From: Anaerolineales bacterium
GTDB taxonomy: Bacteria > Chloroflexota > Anaerolineae > Anaerolineales > UBA11579
DNA length: 51,889 nt
Assembly (NCBI GenBank): GCA_020059485.1
Contig: JAGVCA010000016.1
Span: 1-51,889, forward strand
Direction: 5' to 3'
Shown: positions 24,666 through 42,300 of the stretch, in pieces
Numbering within the stretch: the stretch's first letter is position 1
Layout of the letters: each line of letters begins with the position of its first letter
The notes under the pieces: model-generated
Database searches by the model: none
What the model saw: the letters and a program-made list of their open reading frames with translations, nothing else
What the model was told of the DNA's origin: nothing
Made by a program: the position numbers and the translations under genes

Positions 24666-24887
24666 CTACTGACGCACCAGATTGTAGGCCAAGGTCGCTG
24701 CGGCCAGGACCTGAACGACGACCGCCAGGGCCTCGACCCGCTGGTGCAGCGCGCCCAGTTCGCGGCGGCGGTCGTCCCGCTCCTCGCGCAGGGCGATCAG
24801 GATCATCTGGTTGCTGACCCGCTCTGGCGGGCGGGCGTCCTCACGCTCCAGAAAGCGGGCGATGCGCTCGATGGTGTCGCCGTTCAT
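24666..24887 (-). CDS. Holin-like/XhlA-like small membrane protein
   Basis: A 73-residue protein: an amphipathic, highly charged N-terminal two-thirds (RFLEREDARPPERV, RREELRRR-like heptads) and one C-terminal hydrophobic helix (VEALAVVVQVLAAATLAYNLV). Coiled coil plus C-terminal membrane helix is the arrangement of XhlA-type proteins that accompany phage endolysins. The gene overlaps the endolysin stop (ATGA, 24884-24887), which makes a lysis cassette. Function is inferred from context. Confidence 0.6.
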   Translation of the reverse strand: MNGDTIERIARFLEREDARPPERVSNQMILIALREERDDRRRELGALHQRVEALAVVVQVLAAATLAYNLVRQ

Positions 24888-25777
24888 TCCTGCTGGTACT
24901 CCCGGGTGCGCTGCAGATGGACAATCAGTTCGTCCGAGCGGGCTTTCCAGCCGGCACGATAGGCGGCCATCACCTGGCGAACGTCTGCAGATTCGGTCTC
25001 ATCCTGGTGGTAAGCGCCCATCATCTGGTCCACCACCTCGGGCGGATGCAGGATCACGCTCAGGTCGGCCATCTTGGTCATCATCCCGCCGGGGACAAGC
25101 AGGCCGGGCATCGGGAAATCAGCGGCAAACTGCCACATCCAGTAACGTTCGAAGGGGCGCGGCAGGCGCGGGGAGAACGAGCGCGGCACGAACTCGCGGA
25201 GCATGTCGTCGTTCTTTGGACGGCGGTATGGCCACCAGGCCAGCCACAGCCCATCGATGAACGGTTCCTCGGCGATCCAGGACGGGCCGCGCCACAGATT
25301 GGCGGGGGATTCCAGCTTCATATCCTGCCAGGTGGCGGCATTGGTGTACAACAGATCGAAGGCCAGCCAGTTGGACTGGTGCAGGGTGCGGTGGAAGGCG
25401 TGCAGGTCATGGCTCTCGCTGCCCAGGGTCGGGTTGTAGTATTCGCTGGTGCTGGCTGAGCGAGGGCCGCGCTCGAAGTCGTTGGCGCGCAGGTTGACAT
25501 CGTCCCAGTATTGCTGGGTGTGGTGCAGGAAGTACTCGGCCTGGGCCTCGGGCGGCACCCGGCGCCCGCCGATGCTGGTGCGGTAGAAGTGGTACAACCC
25601 GACATGCCGGCCGGAACCAAGAGCGCCCTCGACATGATTGGCCAGGCTGGGATCGACCATGTAATCGCCCTCGGTGGCTTTGATCAGCACCAGCCGAACA
25701 TACTGCGGGATCTTATGCCATTCGACCTCCCACCAATGGGAGATGTCGATGGCATACGTCAGGTTTTGTTCGGTCAT
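24884..25777 (-). CDS. GH25-type lysozyme (phage endolysin)
   Basis: A 297-residue muramidase-like protein. The GH25 fold starts at AIDISHWWEVEWHKIP (catalytic Asp in the ID-S pattern) and continues through LVLIKATEGDYMVDPSLANH and GLYHFYRTSIGG. The central part contains FDLLYTNAATWQDM and LWLAWWPYRRP (typical LWxAxW). The expected QF/Y substrate motif appears as YWMWQFAADF. About 60 residues at the C-terminus are extra and charged. It is coupled by ATGA overlaps to the small genes on both sides. The reading frame is intact. Confidence 0.85.
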   Translation of the reverse strand: MTEQNLTYAIDISHWWEVEWHKIPQYVRLVLIKATEGDYMVDPSLANHVEGALGSGRHVGLYHFYRTSIGGRRVPPEAQAEYFLHHTQQYWDDVNLRANDFERGPRSASTSEYYNPTLGSESHDLHAFHRTLHQSNWLAFDLLYTNAATWQDMKLESPANLWRGPSWIAEEPFIDGLWLAWWPYRRPKNDDMLREFVPRSFSPRLPRPFERYWMWQFAADFPMPGLLVPGGMMTKMADLSVILHPPEVVDQMMGAYHQDETESADVRQVMAAYRAGWKARSDELIVHLQRTREYQQE

Positions 25778-25884
25778 TTCGCCTCCGTCGTCAGCAGAAG
25801 TTTCCTGCGGTTCGCCCGCAGCGTCACCGTCCGGGCCTTCGTCGTCAGCAGCAGTTTGCGCCGTTTCGCTCTCAGATCAGTCAT
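25774..25884 (-). CDS. 36-residue basic repeat peptide in the prophage lysis block
   Basis: ATG at 25884 with GAGGTGA upstream; the stop overlaps the endolysin start (ATGA). The peptide contains an internal duplication: RAKRRKLLLTTKAR near the start and RANRRKLLLTTEAK at the end. It is strongly basic. The coupling, ribosome site and repeat support a real gene. No family was recognised, and its role in the lysis block is unknown. Confidence 0.6.
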   Translation of the reverse strand: MTDLRAKRRKLLLTTKARTVTLRANRRKLLLTTEAK

Positions 25885-25900
25885 ACATCACCTCATGGAT

Positions 25901-25944
25901 GTTTGGGCGCAGCCCAAACTCCCGTTGCAAGCCGCAGGCTTGCA
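25901..25944. repeat. Paired REP-like hairpins
   Basis: GTTTGGGC-GCA-GCCCAAAC (25901-25919) and TGCAAGCC-GCA-GGCTTGCA (25926-25944): two 8-bp perfect stems, both with GCA loops, six bases apart. They sit where the prophage structural gene is cut short. The same paired design occurs at 11021-11063 and 29758-29810. Confidence 0.75.
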
Positions 25945-26199
25945 TCACTCGTCCCCCGGATCAACGATCCGGATCAGGAACTTGCGGATCTCAGTATTCC
26001 CGCCCTCCGGCGCAGCCCCCGCACCGCCGGCGTCCTGCAGCACGATCACCGCCCCGCCTTTCCAGTCGTCGTCCTGGCCCATCCCGGCCAGTTTGGTATC
26101 CACCACCGTGGTCGTGTTCCCCCCCGTCGCCGTCGCCACCTGTAACTGCCCCAGCTCCGCATACGCATCCCGCAGCATCTCTCATAGATAGTACGTCAT
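25945..26199 (-). pseudogene. Phage structural protein remnant with nonsense codon
   Basis: GGGAGGAG followed by ATG at 26199 starts MTYYL, then TGA (26182-26184), then EMLRDAYAELGQLQVATATG in the same frame to 25945. One C-to-T change (CGA to TGA) explains the stop. The region after it, with TATGGNTTTVVDTKLAG and VIVLQDAGGAGAAPEG, resembles the N-terminal part of larger phage virion proteins; it is cut short next to the paired hairpins. An internal start at 26178 could still make a 77-residue product. Confidence 0.6.
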
Positions 26200-26301
26200 C
26201 GTTTACTCCTCCCTTCGGGCCTGTTCCCGGGCAGGTCTGGCCTGCTTACAATGACAGGTGTGTGCCGCAGCGTACCTGCCCGGGAAAACTGCCCCCTCCG
26301 A

Positions 26302-27438
26302 TCAGGTGGTGATGCCGGTGATCTTGCCGTGAGCCTTGTCGTTGGCCAGTAGCAGCGAGAACTCGCCGACCACCTCGCCGCGGATGCTGTCGCCGACCCG
26401 GGCTAGCTCGTAGGCAGAGAACGGCCGCAGGGCGTAGAACCCGACCTTGTCGGACTGCAGCACATAGGCGGTGCCAGTCGGGCACCAGCGGTCTATGACC
26501 AGTTCCAGCTCGCCGTACTGGGTGACGACTCGCTCAATGGCGTTCATCCCGAACTGCAGTTCGTGCTGGCCGATGCGGATGAAACTGGAATTGTCCAGCA
26601 GGGCGCGCAGGTCATTGGCAACACGCGGGTTCATCACCAGCAGGTCGGGGTAGCCGCCGTCCAGGATGATCTCCTCCATCAGGGCATCGACATCCGCTTT
26701 GACGATCGCGCCGCCGGCATCGACGGTGTTGTCGGTGATGAAGGTATCCAGCCCGCCGGCCGAGCGCGGTGCAGTGGCCGAACCTTCCACCCGCTCGCCG
26801 TAGAAGGCCATCCGCTCGACCAGTCGCAGCAGGTGCGGCGCGGCCTTGTTGGCCTGATACATGAACTCATCCTGGATGCCGTGCTGGGAGATGGCATGCA
26901 TCGTACCGGAGACCTTGATGGCCTTCTGGAAGATGCTGGTGTAGTTGTACGGGGCGGTGATGTCGGTCCGCGGGCCGTAGTCGGCGTCGTCGCCTTCCAG
27001 GCGGGCCATGCCGACAATGTAGATGATCGTATCGTCGGCGTGGGCGGCCGGGCTGGTGCCGCCAAAGCCGCGGGCATAGACCTCGATGGTATTGGCGGCA
27101 GCATCGGCGGACTTGACGACCAGTTTCTCGCTCCCCACCAGCAGAATGTGGCCGTCCTGGAACTTGCTGGCATCGTCCACGGCCAGGCCGGTGGTGGCAG
27201 AGTTGTCCCAGCCGGCGGCGTTGTCGATGGCATCATCCAGCGGGTCGAGTTCGTCTTCGAGCAGTTCGATCTTGTAGCCATTCAGGCTGAGCTGGAACTT
27301 CTCGCGGGCGCTGTCAAGGCCAAACTTGGCCAGCAGCGGGGTGTCGCGCGGGTCGATCATCGAGATCACATCGCTGATCACCCGGGCCTGAGCAGTGGCG
27401 TCGCTGTAAACGGTTTTTGGTTGGTCAAGAATTGTCAT
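26302..27438 (-). CDS. SU10-type (DUF5309) phage major capsid protein
   Basis: A 378-residue HK97-fold major capsid protein of the SU10/DUF5309 family. Recognisable blocks are SDVISMIDPRDTPLLAKFGL (N-terminus), VSGTMHAISQHGIQDEFMYQ, AFYGERVEGSATAPRSAGGL, MNPRVANDLRAL, ERVVTQYGELELVIDRW and GEFSLLLANDKAHGKITG (C-terminus). The length is normal and there is no internal stop, unlike other parts of this prophage. It lies downstream of a scaffold-like gene in the usual order. GGAGAG precedes the ATG. Confidence 0.85.
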   Translation of the reverse strand: MTILDQPKTVYSDATAQARVISDVISMIDPRDTPLLAKFGLDSAREKFQLSLNGYKIELLEDELDPLDDAIDNAAGWDNSATTGLAVDDASKFQDGHILLVGSEKLVVKSADAAANTIEVYARGFGGTSPAAHADDTIIYIVGMARLEGDDADYGPRTDITAPYNYTSIFQKAIKVSGTMHAISQHGIQDEFMYQANKAAPHLLRLVERMAFYGERVEGSATAPRSAGGLDTFITDNTVDAGGAIVKADVDALMEEIILDGGYPDLLVMNPRVANDLRALLDNSSFIRIGQHELQFGMNAIERVVTQYGELELVIDRWCPTGTAYVLQSDKVGFYALRPFSAYELARVGDSIRGEVVGEFSLLLANDKAHGKITGITT

Positions 27439-31281: not shown

Positions 31282-31306
31282 CGCTACTGTCTGGAAACTC
31301 AGACAA

Positions 31307-31333
31307 AACCGCCCCCGGCGTTCGGGGGCGGTT
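31307..31333 (-). terminator. Terminator of the selenoprotein gene
   Basis: AACCGCCCCCG (31307-31317) pairs with CGGGGGCGGTT (31323-31333). On the minus strand it is followed by TTTTG. It lies eight bases after the peroxiredoxin stop. Confidence 0.8.
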
Positions 31334-31341
31334 GTTTGGAC

Positions 31342-31896
31342 CTAATTCAGGTTTTGCTGGACAAAACTCGTGAGCTCATCGACCGGCACATACATGGTCC
31401 GGTTTGGGTTGTCCGGCGCGCCGTAATCCTTGACCCACACGACCTTGCCGGTTTGATCGACCAGCACAAAGGTATGGGACGGTTCACCGTTGTCGATGGC
31501 AAACTGCAGCACATCATAAGCCGCCGACACCGACAGGTCCGGGTCCGAGAGCATCGGCACTGCGGAGATCCCCAGCGTATTAATATCCGGGGTTTGTTCG
31601 GCGGTTGAGTCACGGGCGATGCTGATCAATTGCACGCCGAGGGATTGGAATTCGTCATCATTTTGCAGATCAACGATCTGCTGCATGCAAGGCGGTCAAC
31701 CGACCGCCATATGGAAGTACAGCAGCACCGGTTGGCCGGAAAAATCCGCCAGCGAGGTCTGCCCGCCGAGGGCGTCGTCAAGCGTGAAGCCGGGCGCGTC
31801 CTGCCCGACTATACCTTGCTCGACCGGGGCTGGGCTGCCGCAAGCGGCCAGCAGCAGAGCCAGCAGTAATACACCAACAATTGTGAATCGTTTCAT
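31342..31896 (-). CDS. Selenocysteine-containing peroxiredoxin-like lipoprotein
   Basis: 184 residues when the in-frame TGA at 31696-31698 is read as Sec67. The lipoprotein signal is MKRFTIVGVLLLALLLAAC. AhpC/TSA-type thioredoxin fold follows: VGQDAPGFTLDDALGG, PVLLYFHMAVG, then U-P-P-C (Sec67, Cys70), QQIVDLQ, LISIARDSTAEQ, AVPMLSDPDLSVSAAYDV, FVLVDQTGKVVWV. The TGA replaces the first redox Cys of a CxxC, and family conservation continues on both sides. A stem-loop lies 14 nt downstream of it. Conventional calling splits this into two ORFs of 66 and 114 residues. A -10 (TATAAT, 31985-31980) lies upstream. Confidence 0.82.
31665..31681 (-). promoter_or_regulatory. Candidate bacterial SECIS hairpin
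   Basis: On the mRNA strand GCAGATC (31681-31675) and GATCTGC (31671-31665) form a perfect 7-bp stem with loop GTT. It starts 14 nt after the UGA, within the distance range used by SelB-dependent bacterial SECIS elements. The small GU-containing apical loop fits the known preference. Confidence 0.65.
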
Positions 31897-32039
31897 TCAG
31901 TATCCTCTCATAGTCTGGCTGCCATCCTGGCCGATCAGGTCAATCGGAAAACTGACAACCAGAGGAATTATTTAGACAAATTATACCTAATTAGTTGCCA
32001 AGACAGATTGCCAATCCAACCCTGAGGGAGATTAATAGC

Positions 32040-35239: not shown

Positions 35240-35770
35240 CTAATTCGAGGTAGTGTCGGTGCTCAAGCCCATCTGGCTGAGATAATCGTCCAGTTGGGAT
35301 TCGGTCATCAGGCCGATATGCACGAACTGAATGATACCATGCTCGTTCACGAACAAACTGGTCGGGTAGGCGCGCACCAGGTAAAGCATCTGGACCCGCG
35401 CGGCTGGATCAAGCAGCGGCTCGAAAGTCAGGCCAAGCTCATCCCGGAAGGCGGCCACCTGATCGAGCGGTTCATCATTGTCAATTGCCAGCACTACCAG
35501 ATCGCCGCCATGCCGCTCATAGCGGTCCTGGATCCCGGGCATCTCCAGCCGGCAGGGGGGGCACCAGGTGGCCCAGAAATTGATCAGAACCACCGAGCCG
35601 CGCAATTCGCTCAGAGTGACTTGCTGACCGGCAGTATCGGCCAGGGTAAAGTCCGGCGCGTACGCACCGATCTCCGGGGCGGTTCGGATGCCTTCCTCCG
35701 GGGATGTCCGGCAGGCCGCTGCAGTCAGGAAGATCAGAATAAAAACAACAAGGGTACGGAAATGAGTCAT
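35240..35770 (-). CDS. TlpA-family thioredoxin-like lipoprotein
   Basis: A 176-residue predicted lipoprotein (LIFLTAAAC) with a thioredoxin fold: YAPDFTLADTAGQQVTLSEL, VVLINFWATWCPPCRLEMPG (active-site CPPC), LVVLAIDNDEPLDQ and AYPTSLFVNEHGII (cis-Pro). It probably reduces extracytoplasmic disulfides with electrons from the CcdA-like protein encoded 18 bp upstream. Confidence 0.92.
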   Translation of the reverse strand: MTHFRTLVVFILIFLTAAACRTSPEEGIRTAPEIGAYAPDFTLADTAGQQVTLSELRGSVVLINFWATWCPPCRLEMPGIQDRYERHGGDLVVLAIDNDEPLDQVAAFRDELGLTFEPLLDPAARVQMLYLVRAYPTSLFVNEHGIIQFVHIGLMTESQLDDYLSQMGLSTDTTSN

Positions 35771-35788: not shown

Positions 35789-36700
35789 TCAGGCGAAGAT
35801 TGCCGCCAGGGGTGCAAGCACCCCCAGCACATACAGTACAATCAATACCACCACGCTGATGCCCGTGCCGAGGAACCACCAGTCCATAAACTCCCCGCCG
35901 CGCCGGCGGGCAATCAAGGCCGGGATCAAACCGATCAGCAGCGAGGCGAAGAAACCGGCCACCAGCATGCGGCCGATCATGACCTCATCGCCGCTCTCGA
36001 TAAAATTGCCTAGCGTTGCCAGCTGTTCGAACCGGCCGAGGAACAGGAGCACGCCAATGCCGATCAGTACCACACCCATAATGATCTCGGTGTAGTGCAT
36101 CACCTTGCCGTAACGGCGGATGATGGTCGTGACCCAGCCGATCTGGGTGGCAGCCACCAGGAAGGGGATCGCCAGCCCGGCGGAATATGCCGCCAACAGC
36201 AAAGCGCCTTGCCCCGACCCGCCCTGGTTGAAGGACAGTGTCAGGATCGCCCCCAACACCGGTCCGACACACGGCGCCCAACCGGCTGAGAAGAATACGC
36301 CCATCAGAGCGGAAGAGATATAACCTCGCTTGCGGTCCGGCTGGGACTGCGGACGCAGGTCATAATCCAGAAAGGGGATCCTCAGAATGCGGGTCATATG
36401 CAGGCCGAACAGGATTACGACCACGCCGCCGACCTTGACCAGCACCTCGGTCAGCTGGTAGCGGAAACCGCCCAACGCCCCTGCCAGCGCGCCCAGAAAG
36501 ACAAATACCACGCTGAATCCCAGCACGAAGACCAGGCCGTGTGAGAAAGTTTCAAGCGTGGAAGTGGCTTTATTCTGGCCGCCGGCCACCGAACGACCGC
36601 TGAGATACCCGATATACGCCGGAACCAGGGCAAATACGCAAGGCGAGAGGAATGAAGCCACCCCGGCGAAGAATGCGATCCCGAAATTGATGTTGCTCAT
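35789..36700 (-). CDS. ccdA: CcdA-like cytochrome c biogenesis/thiol-reduction membrane protein
   Basis: A 303-residue polytopic protein of the CcdA/DsbD-beta family. The first helix carries FFAGVASFLSPCVFALVPAY and a middle helix has FSAGWAPCVGPVLGAILTLS; the two Pro-Cys motifs are the redox pair that moves electrons across the membrane. Eight or so hydrophobic segments. Directly upstream of the TlpA gene, which is its probable electron acceptor. Confidence 0.92.
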   Translation of the reverse strand: MSNINFGIAFFAGVASFLSPCVFALVPAYIGYLSGRSVAGGQNKATSTLETFSHGLVFVLGFSVVFVFLGALAGALGGFRYQLTEVLVKVGGVVVILFGLHMTRILRIPFLDYDLRPQSQPDRKRGYISSALMGVFFSAGWAPCVGPVLGAILTLSFNQGGSGQGALLLAAYSAGLAIPFLVAATQIGWVTTIIRRYGKVMHYTEIIMGVVLIGIGVLLFLGRFEQLATLGNFIESGDEVMIGRMLVAGFFASLLIGLIPALIARRRGGEFMDWWFLGTGISVVVLIVLYVLGVLAPLAAIFA

Positions 36701-39867: not shown

Positions 39868-42300
39868 TCAGACCGATAGAGAGAGCTTCCGCAGCCGCAA
39901 ACTGTTGGTGACCACGAACACACTGCTGAAGGCCATCGCGCCTGCCGCCAGCATCGGCACCAGCAATCCGGCCGCTGCCGCCGGGATCAGGATGACATTG
40001 TAGATAAAGGCCCAGAACAGGTTCTGGCGGATGGTCTTCAGTGTCCGGCGGGAAAGCGCGATCGCTTTCGGCACACCCATCAGATCACCGCCCACCAGCA
40101 CCACCGGTGCAGCCGCCATGGCCACATCCGTCCCTGTCCCGATCGCGATCCCAACCTCCGCCTGGGCTAGCGCCGGGGCATCATTGATCCCATCCCCGAC
40201 CATTGCCACGACTTCATCCTGCTGCTGCAGGCGTTGGATGGCTTCCGCCTTTGCACCCGGAAGCACCTCAGCGATCACCTCGTCGATCCCGGCCTGCTTC
40301 GCAATTGCCTCAGCCGTCAGGCGGTTGTCTCCTGTCAGCATCACGACCTTGAGCCCCATTTGCTTCAGTTGGGCAACGGCCTGAACAGAATTCTCTTTCA
40401 AAGTGTCGGCCACGGCGATGATCCCCCCAATGCGGTCATCCACTGCACACAGCATGGCGGTTTTGCCTTCCGACTGCAGCCGGGTGACATCTTCGCGCCA
40501 TTGGCTGGCATCCAGACCGAATTTTTCCATCATGGACGGCGAACCAACCAGCACGCGCCGGCCTTCCACCTCAGCCCGGACGCCGAAACCAACCTCAGCC
40601 TCAAAGCCATCCGCAGGCGATAGCGCCAGCCCATGGGCATTCGCCCTCGCCAGGATCGCCTCTCCTAGCGGATGCTCGCTGCTGCCTTCCACGCTGGCGG
40701 CCAGGCGGAGCAGGTCATCCTCGGTCAGGCTGCCATTCTCACGGCCGATCAAAACATCGGTCACCGCCGGCTGGCCGCGCGTCAGGGTGCCGGTCTTGTC
40801 GAGCACCACGGTTGTGATCTGCCCGGCCTGTTCCAGCGCTTCGCTGGACTTGAGCAAGATCCCCATTTCAGCGCCCCGCCCGGTCCCGACCATCACAGCC
40901 GTCGGCGTGGCCAGTCCCATCGCGCACGGGCAGGCGATCACCAGCACGGCGACCATATTGATCAGCGCGCGGGTAAACGGGGAAACATCCGCTGCGGTCG
41001 GTGCAGGGATGATGAAGTACCAGACCAGGAAGGTGGTAAGGGCGATCCCGATCACTATCGGCACAAATACAGCCGAGACCCGGTCGGCCAGCTTCTGGAT
41101 CGGAGCTTTGCTGGTCTGCGCCTCTTCCACCAGCCGGATGATCTGCGCCAGAGCAGTCTCTTTACCAACCTTGGCGGCCTCAAACACAAAGCGGCCGGTT
41201 TTGTTCAATGTTGCCCCGATGACATCATCACCCTCACGTTTCGGCACGGGCATCGACTCGCCGGTCAGCATGGATTCATCCACGGTCGAACGGCCTTCGA
41301 CCACCACCCCATCCACCGGGACACGCTCACCCGGGCGAACGACCACCAGATCGCCCACCGACACTTCTGCCGCCGGGATCTCTGCTTCCTTGCCGTCCCG
41401 CATCACTGTGGCGGTCTTGGGCTGCAGGCCAATCAGCTTCTTGATCGCTTCACTGGTCTCGCCTTTGGCGCGCGCCTCCAGGAACTTGCCCAACCGGATC
41501 AGCGTGATGATCACCGCGCCGGTCTCAAAATAAACGTGGCCGGGGATCAGGCCGAGGAGTACCGGGATCGAGTAAAAATACGCCGCGGAGGACCCCATGG
41601 CGATCAACACATCCATGTTGGCCGAACCGTTGCGCACGGATTTGTAGCCGCCGACATAGTACTGCCAGCCGACATAGAACTGCACCGGCGTCGCCAGGGC
41701 CAGCATCAGCCAATTGACCCAGGGAGCGTGTGCCCACATCCCCCACAAGCCCAGATCACGGCCCATCGCCAGCAGAAACAGCGGGACAGTGAAGATCAGC
41801 CCGGTGATCAGCAAACGGCGCTGCTCAGCCATCTCCCGCTGGCGCGCCTGGCGCTCGGCATCTTCAGCCTCGCCGCCGATCTCGACGGCTGTGAAACCGG
41901 CCTTTTCCACCGCCTGACGCAGGTCATTCTGGCTGATGATCGTGGGGATATACCGGACGCGGGCCCGTTCCTGTGCGAAACTGACACTCGCTTCCAGTAC
42001 GCCCTCTAATCCCGTCAGTGCCCGTTCCAGGCGGCGAGCATCGTTATCATCGCTCATCCGCTGGATCACCAGATCGGCTTCGCCAGCCGCGATCCCATAC
42101 CCGGCACGTTCGATCCGCGAGACCATTTCAAAAAGGTTGGCCGCCGCCGGGTCATACGAGACTGCCGCGCGCTCGGTCGTCAGGTTCACGTTGGCCTCCT
42201 GCACACCGGAGACTTTCTTCAGGTTGCGTTCAACTGCCGAAACGCAGTTGGCGCAGGTCATACCGGTGACAGGTAAGCTGATCTGTTTGTGTTCGGGCAT
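39868..42300 (-). CDS. copA: Cu(+)-exporting P1B-type ATPase
   Basis: An 810-residue copper-efflux ATPase. The first HMA domain has GMTCANC (Cys16, Cys19); the second HMA-like domain (about 80-150) has lost its CxxC. In the core are TGES (MLTGESMPV), CPC (457-459, [13 protein letters not shown]), the phosphorylated Asp501 in [11 protein letters not shown] in [25 protein letters not shown] and terminal helix residues NLFWAFIYN and MAFSSVFVV. These residues indicate Cu(I)/Ag(I). It is the third gene of the csoR-copZ-copA operon. Confidence 0.96.

Follow-up and report, generated by a model that had tools for sequence, protein, structure and literature searches.

A predicted lipid-anchored redoxin selenoprotein with a UxxC site and a covarying SECIS-like hairpin in an Anaerolineales bacterium and its relatives

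Selenoproteins built on peroxiredoxin-like domains have already been catalogued. A 2026 review lists Prx-like thiol:disulfide oxidoreductase selenoproteins, which carry the PF00578 domain and a UxxC or UxxU site (reference WP_010940744.1; PMC13188914, table 1), as well as "Redoxin family protein" selenoproteins with the PF08534 domain and a UxxC site (PMC13188914). The name "Prx-like 1" was given to Prx-like selenoproteins in PMC2398784. Almost all selenoproteins are said to possess many Cys homologues (PMC12013277), and the published description of the bacterial SECIS element includes a small apical loop with a G (PMC1088965). Secreted selenoproteins are also listed, among them DsbA/DsbG-like, BtuF, TonB-receptor and MucD-like forms (tables of PMC13188914 and PMC2398784). 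The view, put forward in a first-pass annotation of the locus described here, that selenocysteine (Sec) is uncommon in a lipid-anchored extracytoplasmic protein should therefore be softened, as secretion of selenoproteins has precedents.

The window analyzed here, that is, the whole stretch of 51,889 nucleotides from an Anaerolineales bacterium, carries on its minus strand a gene that, read from its ATG to its TAG, is interrupted only once, by a TGA followed by CCG CCT TGC, giving G-U-P-P-C if the TGA is read as Sec (Table 1). An ordinary ORF caller yields two ORFs at this place, which lie in one frame and are split by TGA-CCG-CCT-TGC, as the first-pass annotation had described; its warning that standard gene calling would lose the protein was thus justified. 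The same two ORFs could also be taken to mean that the TGA is a real stop, in which case the locus would be a pseudogene, a sequencing error or the source of two short proteins with a restart at Met71. The domain matches do not stop at the TGA. Both PF00578 (AhpC-TSA, E 3e-23, residues 30-154) and PF08534 (Redoxin, E 1.9e-18, residues 30-158) cross it in a single stretch, which places the putative Sec at the redox site of a thioredoxin-fold domain, as had been claimed. The in-frame UGA is located at a redox-active residue and has sense homology before and after it, as in selenoproteins. The lipobox signal reported ahead of the domain was also found: an N-terminal hydrophobic segment runs up to the lipobox Cys (LAAC-19), as in bacterial lipoproteins, and a lipobox pattern is present at a comparable position in 55 of 64 relatives.

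Table 1. Features of the predicted selenoprotein gene and its surroundings (positions in the window).
Feature	Position	Strand	Remarks
Predicted selenoprotein gene	31342..31896	minus	184 aa + TAG stop; single internal UGA
Lipoprotein signal peptide and lipobox LAAC	31840..31896	minus	predicted lipidation site Cys19 at 31842-31840
AhpC/TSA-redoxin (thioredoxin-fold) domain	31345..31809	minus	residues 30-184
Predicted Sec67 codon, UGA	31696..31698	minus	TGA in 64/64 readable distinct relatives; Cys in 15/15 sisters
Cys70, UxxC partner of Sec67	31687..31689	minus	Cys in 62/64 relatives; second TGA (UxxU) in 2
Putative bacterial SECIS stem-loop	31665..31681	minus	7 bp GCAGATC/GATCTGC, loop GUU
Shine-Dalgarno-like AGAGGA	31903..31908	minus	from sequence; precedes ATG 31896
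Probable intrinsic terminator	31305..31331	minus	9-bp GC stem then TTTT; z -4.17; absent from consensus scan
ResA/TlpA-like CxxC lipoprotein	35240..35770	minus	candidate redox partner (inferred)
CcdA/DsbD_TM electron-transfer membrane protein	35789..36700	minus	candidate reductant supply (inferred)
Copper-type P-type ATPase (CopA-like)	39868..42300	minus	8 kb from the predicted selenoprotein gene

Relatives were collected by a class search and by scanning bacterial and archaeal genomes, and neither search pattern contained the Sec codon. The resulting 64 distinct sequences, window included, belong to Chloroflexota, Actinomycetota and Thermodesulfobacteriota. A partial Tectomicrobia locus (L143) was excluded, its N-terminal half being absent in every frame of the strand read, and a search for a viral relative of the gene found none. 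One copy on a contig labelled Acidimicrobiia (L120, FR_1) is very near the Thermoflexus/Anaerolinea copies L110/L113, suggesting transfer or mis-binning. Results showed that codon 67 is TGA in every distinct sequence with a readable site and never a sense codon; likewise, each of eight orthologues in related genomes contains a single TGA, placed at this codon. The condition that had been named as fatal to the selenoprotein reading, absence of all Sec machinery together with a lack of homologues with Cys or UGA at the site, is contradicted by these sequences and by the Cys sisters and the machinery described below. The double-Sec sites are located in L135 (4992-5546) and L138 (2552-3097), with the motifs UGAU and UPPU; the hairpins of both are kept apart from the outermost pair.

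A real stop is hard to reconcile with a TGA that independent assemblies, that of the isolate Pelovirga terrestris among them, never show as TAA or TAG, and that is flanked by conserved sequence on both sides and followed by a covarying hairpin; we regard this explanation as extremely improbable. The frame would also be open if TGA were recoded as Trp or Gly throughout the genome. However, among 35 window ORFs with a length of at least 200 aa, chosen greedily (some maybe spurious), 16 end in TGA, and the 15 sisters without TGA all have Cys at the homologous position, so that recoding can be set aside as next to impossible.

These Cys relatives, full-length and without a stop, were found by tblastn against plasmids and by a phylum search. 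They show 35-42% identity (tblastn) and conservation of the segment GHTFVL...W..DYGG..MY. In a profile alignment, both site columns are Cys in all 15 examined sisters, whose motif reads F[QHN]EGxxCxxC. The U/C exchange at residue 67, which the first-pass annotation had proposed to look for and which is typical of selenoproteins, was thus observed. A tree built with a quick method, and of moderate support, sets the 64 Sec rows apart by a branch with an SH-aLRT of 90 and the 15 Cys rows by one with 85, while Sec and Cys rows together are separated from other redoxins with an SH-aLRT of 99. No Cys member was found inside the Sec clade among the 64 distinct sequences, which is unusual since nearly all selenoproteins are said to have many Cys homologues (PMC12013277). 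All 15 Cys genes are adjoined by ccdA, and 13 of them also have a glutaredoxin gene. This recurring ccdA - CxxC redoxin - glutaredoxin group (L144-L149, L151-L159) is carried by plasmids of Streptomyces, Paraburkholderia, Microvirga and Rubrobacter, and in some of the groups lgt, DUF2933 or multicopper oxidase genes are located nearby.

A stem-loop just past the UGA with a G in a small apical loop, as in the published SECIS description (PMC1088965), is present in the window: the SECIS-like stem begins 14 nt past the UGA. Taken by itself, the window hairpin does not stand out (z -1.39; 17 of 200 shuffles equally stable), and Rfam models gave no match to it. Because the single-sequence stem is unremarkable, the case for the hairpin rests on comparison. 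Across the 64 sequences, the share of stem cells that pair is 96% in register and 10-41% after a slide of 1-3 nt, and stem covariation exceeded that of 1000/1000 column shuffles. The loop is GUN in all sequences, with an invariant G. Pair 20-30, which is G-C in 49 sequences and A-U in 15 with no mismatch, changes via Gln and Leu codons without altering the residue; pair 21-29 is A-U in 55 and G-C in 9, again with no mismatch, via Ile/Val and synonymous Asp codons. Covariation of the hairpin pairs therefore arises mostly by synonymous or conservative changes. GC or codon bias as its cause was tested and rejected on CTG/TTG usage: genes with CAA at the stem site have TTG in 15/15 cases, while they encode Leu elsewhere by a mixture of codons, and the gene-wise chance of this from CTG/TTG usage, ignoring relatedness, is about 1e-5 for the CAA genes and about 1e-14 for all 64. 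The tree implies at least four separate changes at pair 20-30 and at least five at pair 21-29; a formal tree-based covariation test is underpowered, since the starred branches permit one independent pair each. The 7-bp stem-loop that had been proposed from a single sequence is thus borne out beyond chance across relatives, and the suggested search for a SECIS element returned a covarying SECIS-like hairpin at 31681-31665.

The source genome (G000; 70% complete, 63 contigs) encodes three of the four components of the Sec machinery: a tRNA-Sec with anticodon TCA (73.4 bits, above the Rfam cut-off), selA (517 bits) and selD (366 bits), the latter with its own in-frame TGA at the catalytic GUxxK site (G000:C47:3722-4657, L053). 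No selB was found in this incomplete assembly, where the sole matches were translation GTPases well below the cut-off; the two best of them, read at full length, resemble LepA and TypA. The search for Sec machinery proposed in the first-pass annotation was thus successful for tRNA-Sec, selA and selD and not for selB. The gene order in the relatives G001 and G003 is selB, an amidohydrolase gene, parB and parA. In the source genome, parA, parB and the first 120 amidohydrolase residues occupy contig C45 from base 2272 to base 7, and then the contig ends. Since it breaks off within the gene next to which relatives have selB, an assembly gap is the most likely reason why selB is missing, and its absence was rejected as a disproof of Sec. 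Above-cut-off selB was detected in 8/8 orthologue-carrying relatives and in 5/5 named carriers, i.e., in all 13 other carriers tested. Judging from the sequence evidence, which comprises the frame, the Sec/Cys exchange, the hairpin, the machinery, the fold and the lipobox, we infer that the gene at 31342-31896 is a selenoprotein gene.

Other redoxin genes with in-frame TGA were noticed. The source genome carries a second one, for a TxxU peroxiredoxin fused to a glutaredoxin-like tail/domain (G000:C24:42081-42494, L003). At G456:C11:506449-509617 and at similar loci in G501, G544 and G565, two or three redoxins with in-frame TGA lie in tandem within a few kb; the TGA occupies one site in them, which reads FYRAFWUxxCRxQL in the copies examined for it.

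AlphaFold (47 sequences) predicted a thioredoxin fold with a pLDDT of 93, in which residue 67 is located just ahead of a helix. In a Foldseek search against the PDB, peroxiredoxins came top (TM about 0.67-0.70 by query length) with ResA close behind, while in sequence profiles a thioredoxin family protein and ResA rank first. A true peroxiredoxin-type peroxidase, which at the cell surface would use its selenolate to reduce H2O2 or alkyl hydroperoxides, would agree with these top PDB folds and with the AhpC-TSA profile match. However, typical peroxiredoxins have Thr or Ser three residues before the peroxidatic Cys/Sec (TxxC/TxxU), and this pattern is not conserved here: in the profile alignment, U67 is located in the peroxiredoxin Thr column and Cys70 in the peroxidatic Cys column. 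The site is therefore a thioredoxin-like UxxC on a peroxiredoxin-like scaffold. None of the NCBIfam models of June 2026 reaches its cut-off for the window protein, with all peroxiredoxin models far below theirs, and the association of the Cys sisters with CcdA and glutaredoxin suits disulfide exchange. We consider a peroxidase unlikely. Because of the UxxC site, a lipid-anchored selenol-disulfide oxidoreductase appears more likely than a peroxidase from the sequence. The earlier label "peroxiredoxin-like" thus holds for the scaffold and not for the site, and thiol/selenol-disulfide oxidoreductase is the better name.

Analysis of the gene environment could give clues to electron supply and biological role. 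The window gene appears to stand alone: besides the probable terminator behind it, a terminator-like hairpin lies ahead of it (32065-32044), and a promoter scan found nothing. Elsewhere in the window, genes for a GH25 lysozyme-like protein and an SU10-type major capsid protein (24884-27438, minus strand) are phage-derived and lie beside a chromosomal region. The ResA/TlpA-like lipoprotein and CcdA are encoded 3.3-4.8 kb from the window gene (ccdA at 4 kb); ccdA was found in only 1/63 Sec loci, despite its strong link to the Cys relatives. Conserved neighbours were clustered on the basis of non-overlapping genes. A CopA-like gene lies within 5 kb in 12 of 63 relative loci, and CsoR in five. With about two or three copA genes above the cut-off per genome, we estimate that well under one such locus would be expected by chance, a figure uncorrected for shared ancestry. 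The gene is immediately preceded by copA, on the same strand and at a distance of tens of nt, in L096, L097, L100 and L139; copA also lies directly upstream in G030, G410 and G795, and a Met-rich CxxCH lipoprotein is encoded directly downstream in L073, L074 and L139.

These associations would also suit a copper-handling redoxin of the Sco/TlpA type, which reduces copper-site cysteines or binds Cu(I) through its selenol and is not a general disulfide reductase. The protein shows a weak match to the SCO1 model, but one below the cut-off (13.4 against 22.8 bits), and the copper link is not universal, since most loci have no copper gene nearby. Such a function is possible, though doubtful.

The reading that we hold with high confidence is that of a lipid-anchored extracytoplasmic selenoprotein acting as a disulfide reductase through a CcdA-type relay, with a likely role in copper or oxidant stress. 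The ribosome would read UGA 67 as Sec, aided by SelB, tRNA-Sec and the hairpin located 14 nt downstream. The mature domain would be a thioredoxin-fold redoxin on a peroxiredoxin-like scaffold, with Sec-Pro-Pro-Cys at the start of a helix. For catalysis, substrate, redox partner, electron donor and copper role, we infer the following. Outside the membrane, the Sec67 selenolate would attack a substrate disulfide, possibly a hydroperoxide, Cys70 would resolve the intermediate as a selenenylsulfide, and re-reduction would proceed through a CcdA-type membrane thiol relay and a ResA/TlpA-like partner. Protection or repair of surface thiols in copper or oxidant stress would be the likely role, given the copper-stress neighbourhood in many relatives. 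More tentatively, the family could be a non-reverting clade of surface selenol redoxins, spread over three phyla, co-transcribed with copper export genes and in some members forming a diselenide UxxU site, in which Sec serves extracytoplasmic copper and oxidant defence.

What emerges is a selenoprotein subfamily with good support, present mostly in uncultured bacteria, whose genes are shortened by ordinary gene calling. Its new aspects are a Sec clade in which no Sec-to-Cys change was found, the UxxU site of two members and copper genes as frequent neighbours. It offers testable claims, namely a surface selenol thiol reductase, a link to copper, and an operon in which the Cys sister goes together with ccdA and glutaredoxin. 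The open-access papers searched describe neither this lipoprotein subfamily nor a connection with copper, which speaks only weakly for their absence from the literature; by domain and motif, the protein may already be catalogued as a PF00578/PF08534 selenoprotein.

Compared with known systems, the window protein has the extracytoplasmic thioredoxin fold and xPxC site of ResA/TlpA (PDB matches 2h1b/1su9) but differs in its peroxiredoxin-like scaffold, and it scores 39.2 bits against a cut-off of 170 with NF002854. It resembles SelL and SelL-related proteins in its redoxin fold and, in two relatives, in UxxU, yet reaches only 37.4 bits against the NF040769 cut-off of 120. The CcdA-linked "peroxiredoxin family proteins" (WP_331753139.1 of Streptomyces, WP_042275173.1 of Paraburkholderia) have CxxC at the same two columns, with Cys for Sec and an operon with ccdA and glutaredoxin; the two read at full length have a transmembrane-like N-terminal segment in place of the lipobox. 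With the "Redoxin family protein" selenoproteins it shares the PF08534 match and UxxC, and by this domain and motif its subfamily may be identical with them. The Prx-like thiol:disulfide oxidoreductase selenoproteins are alike in the PF00578 domain, in UxxC and, for two members, in UxxU, whereas the window family has in addition a lipoprotein signal, a copper-gene neighbourhood and a Sec clade with no Cys member found. By domain and motif, the window protein fits this known PF00578 UxxC/UxxU class, as part of a distinct subfamily.
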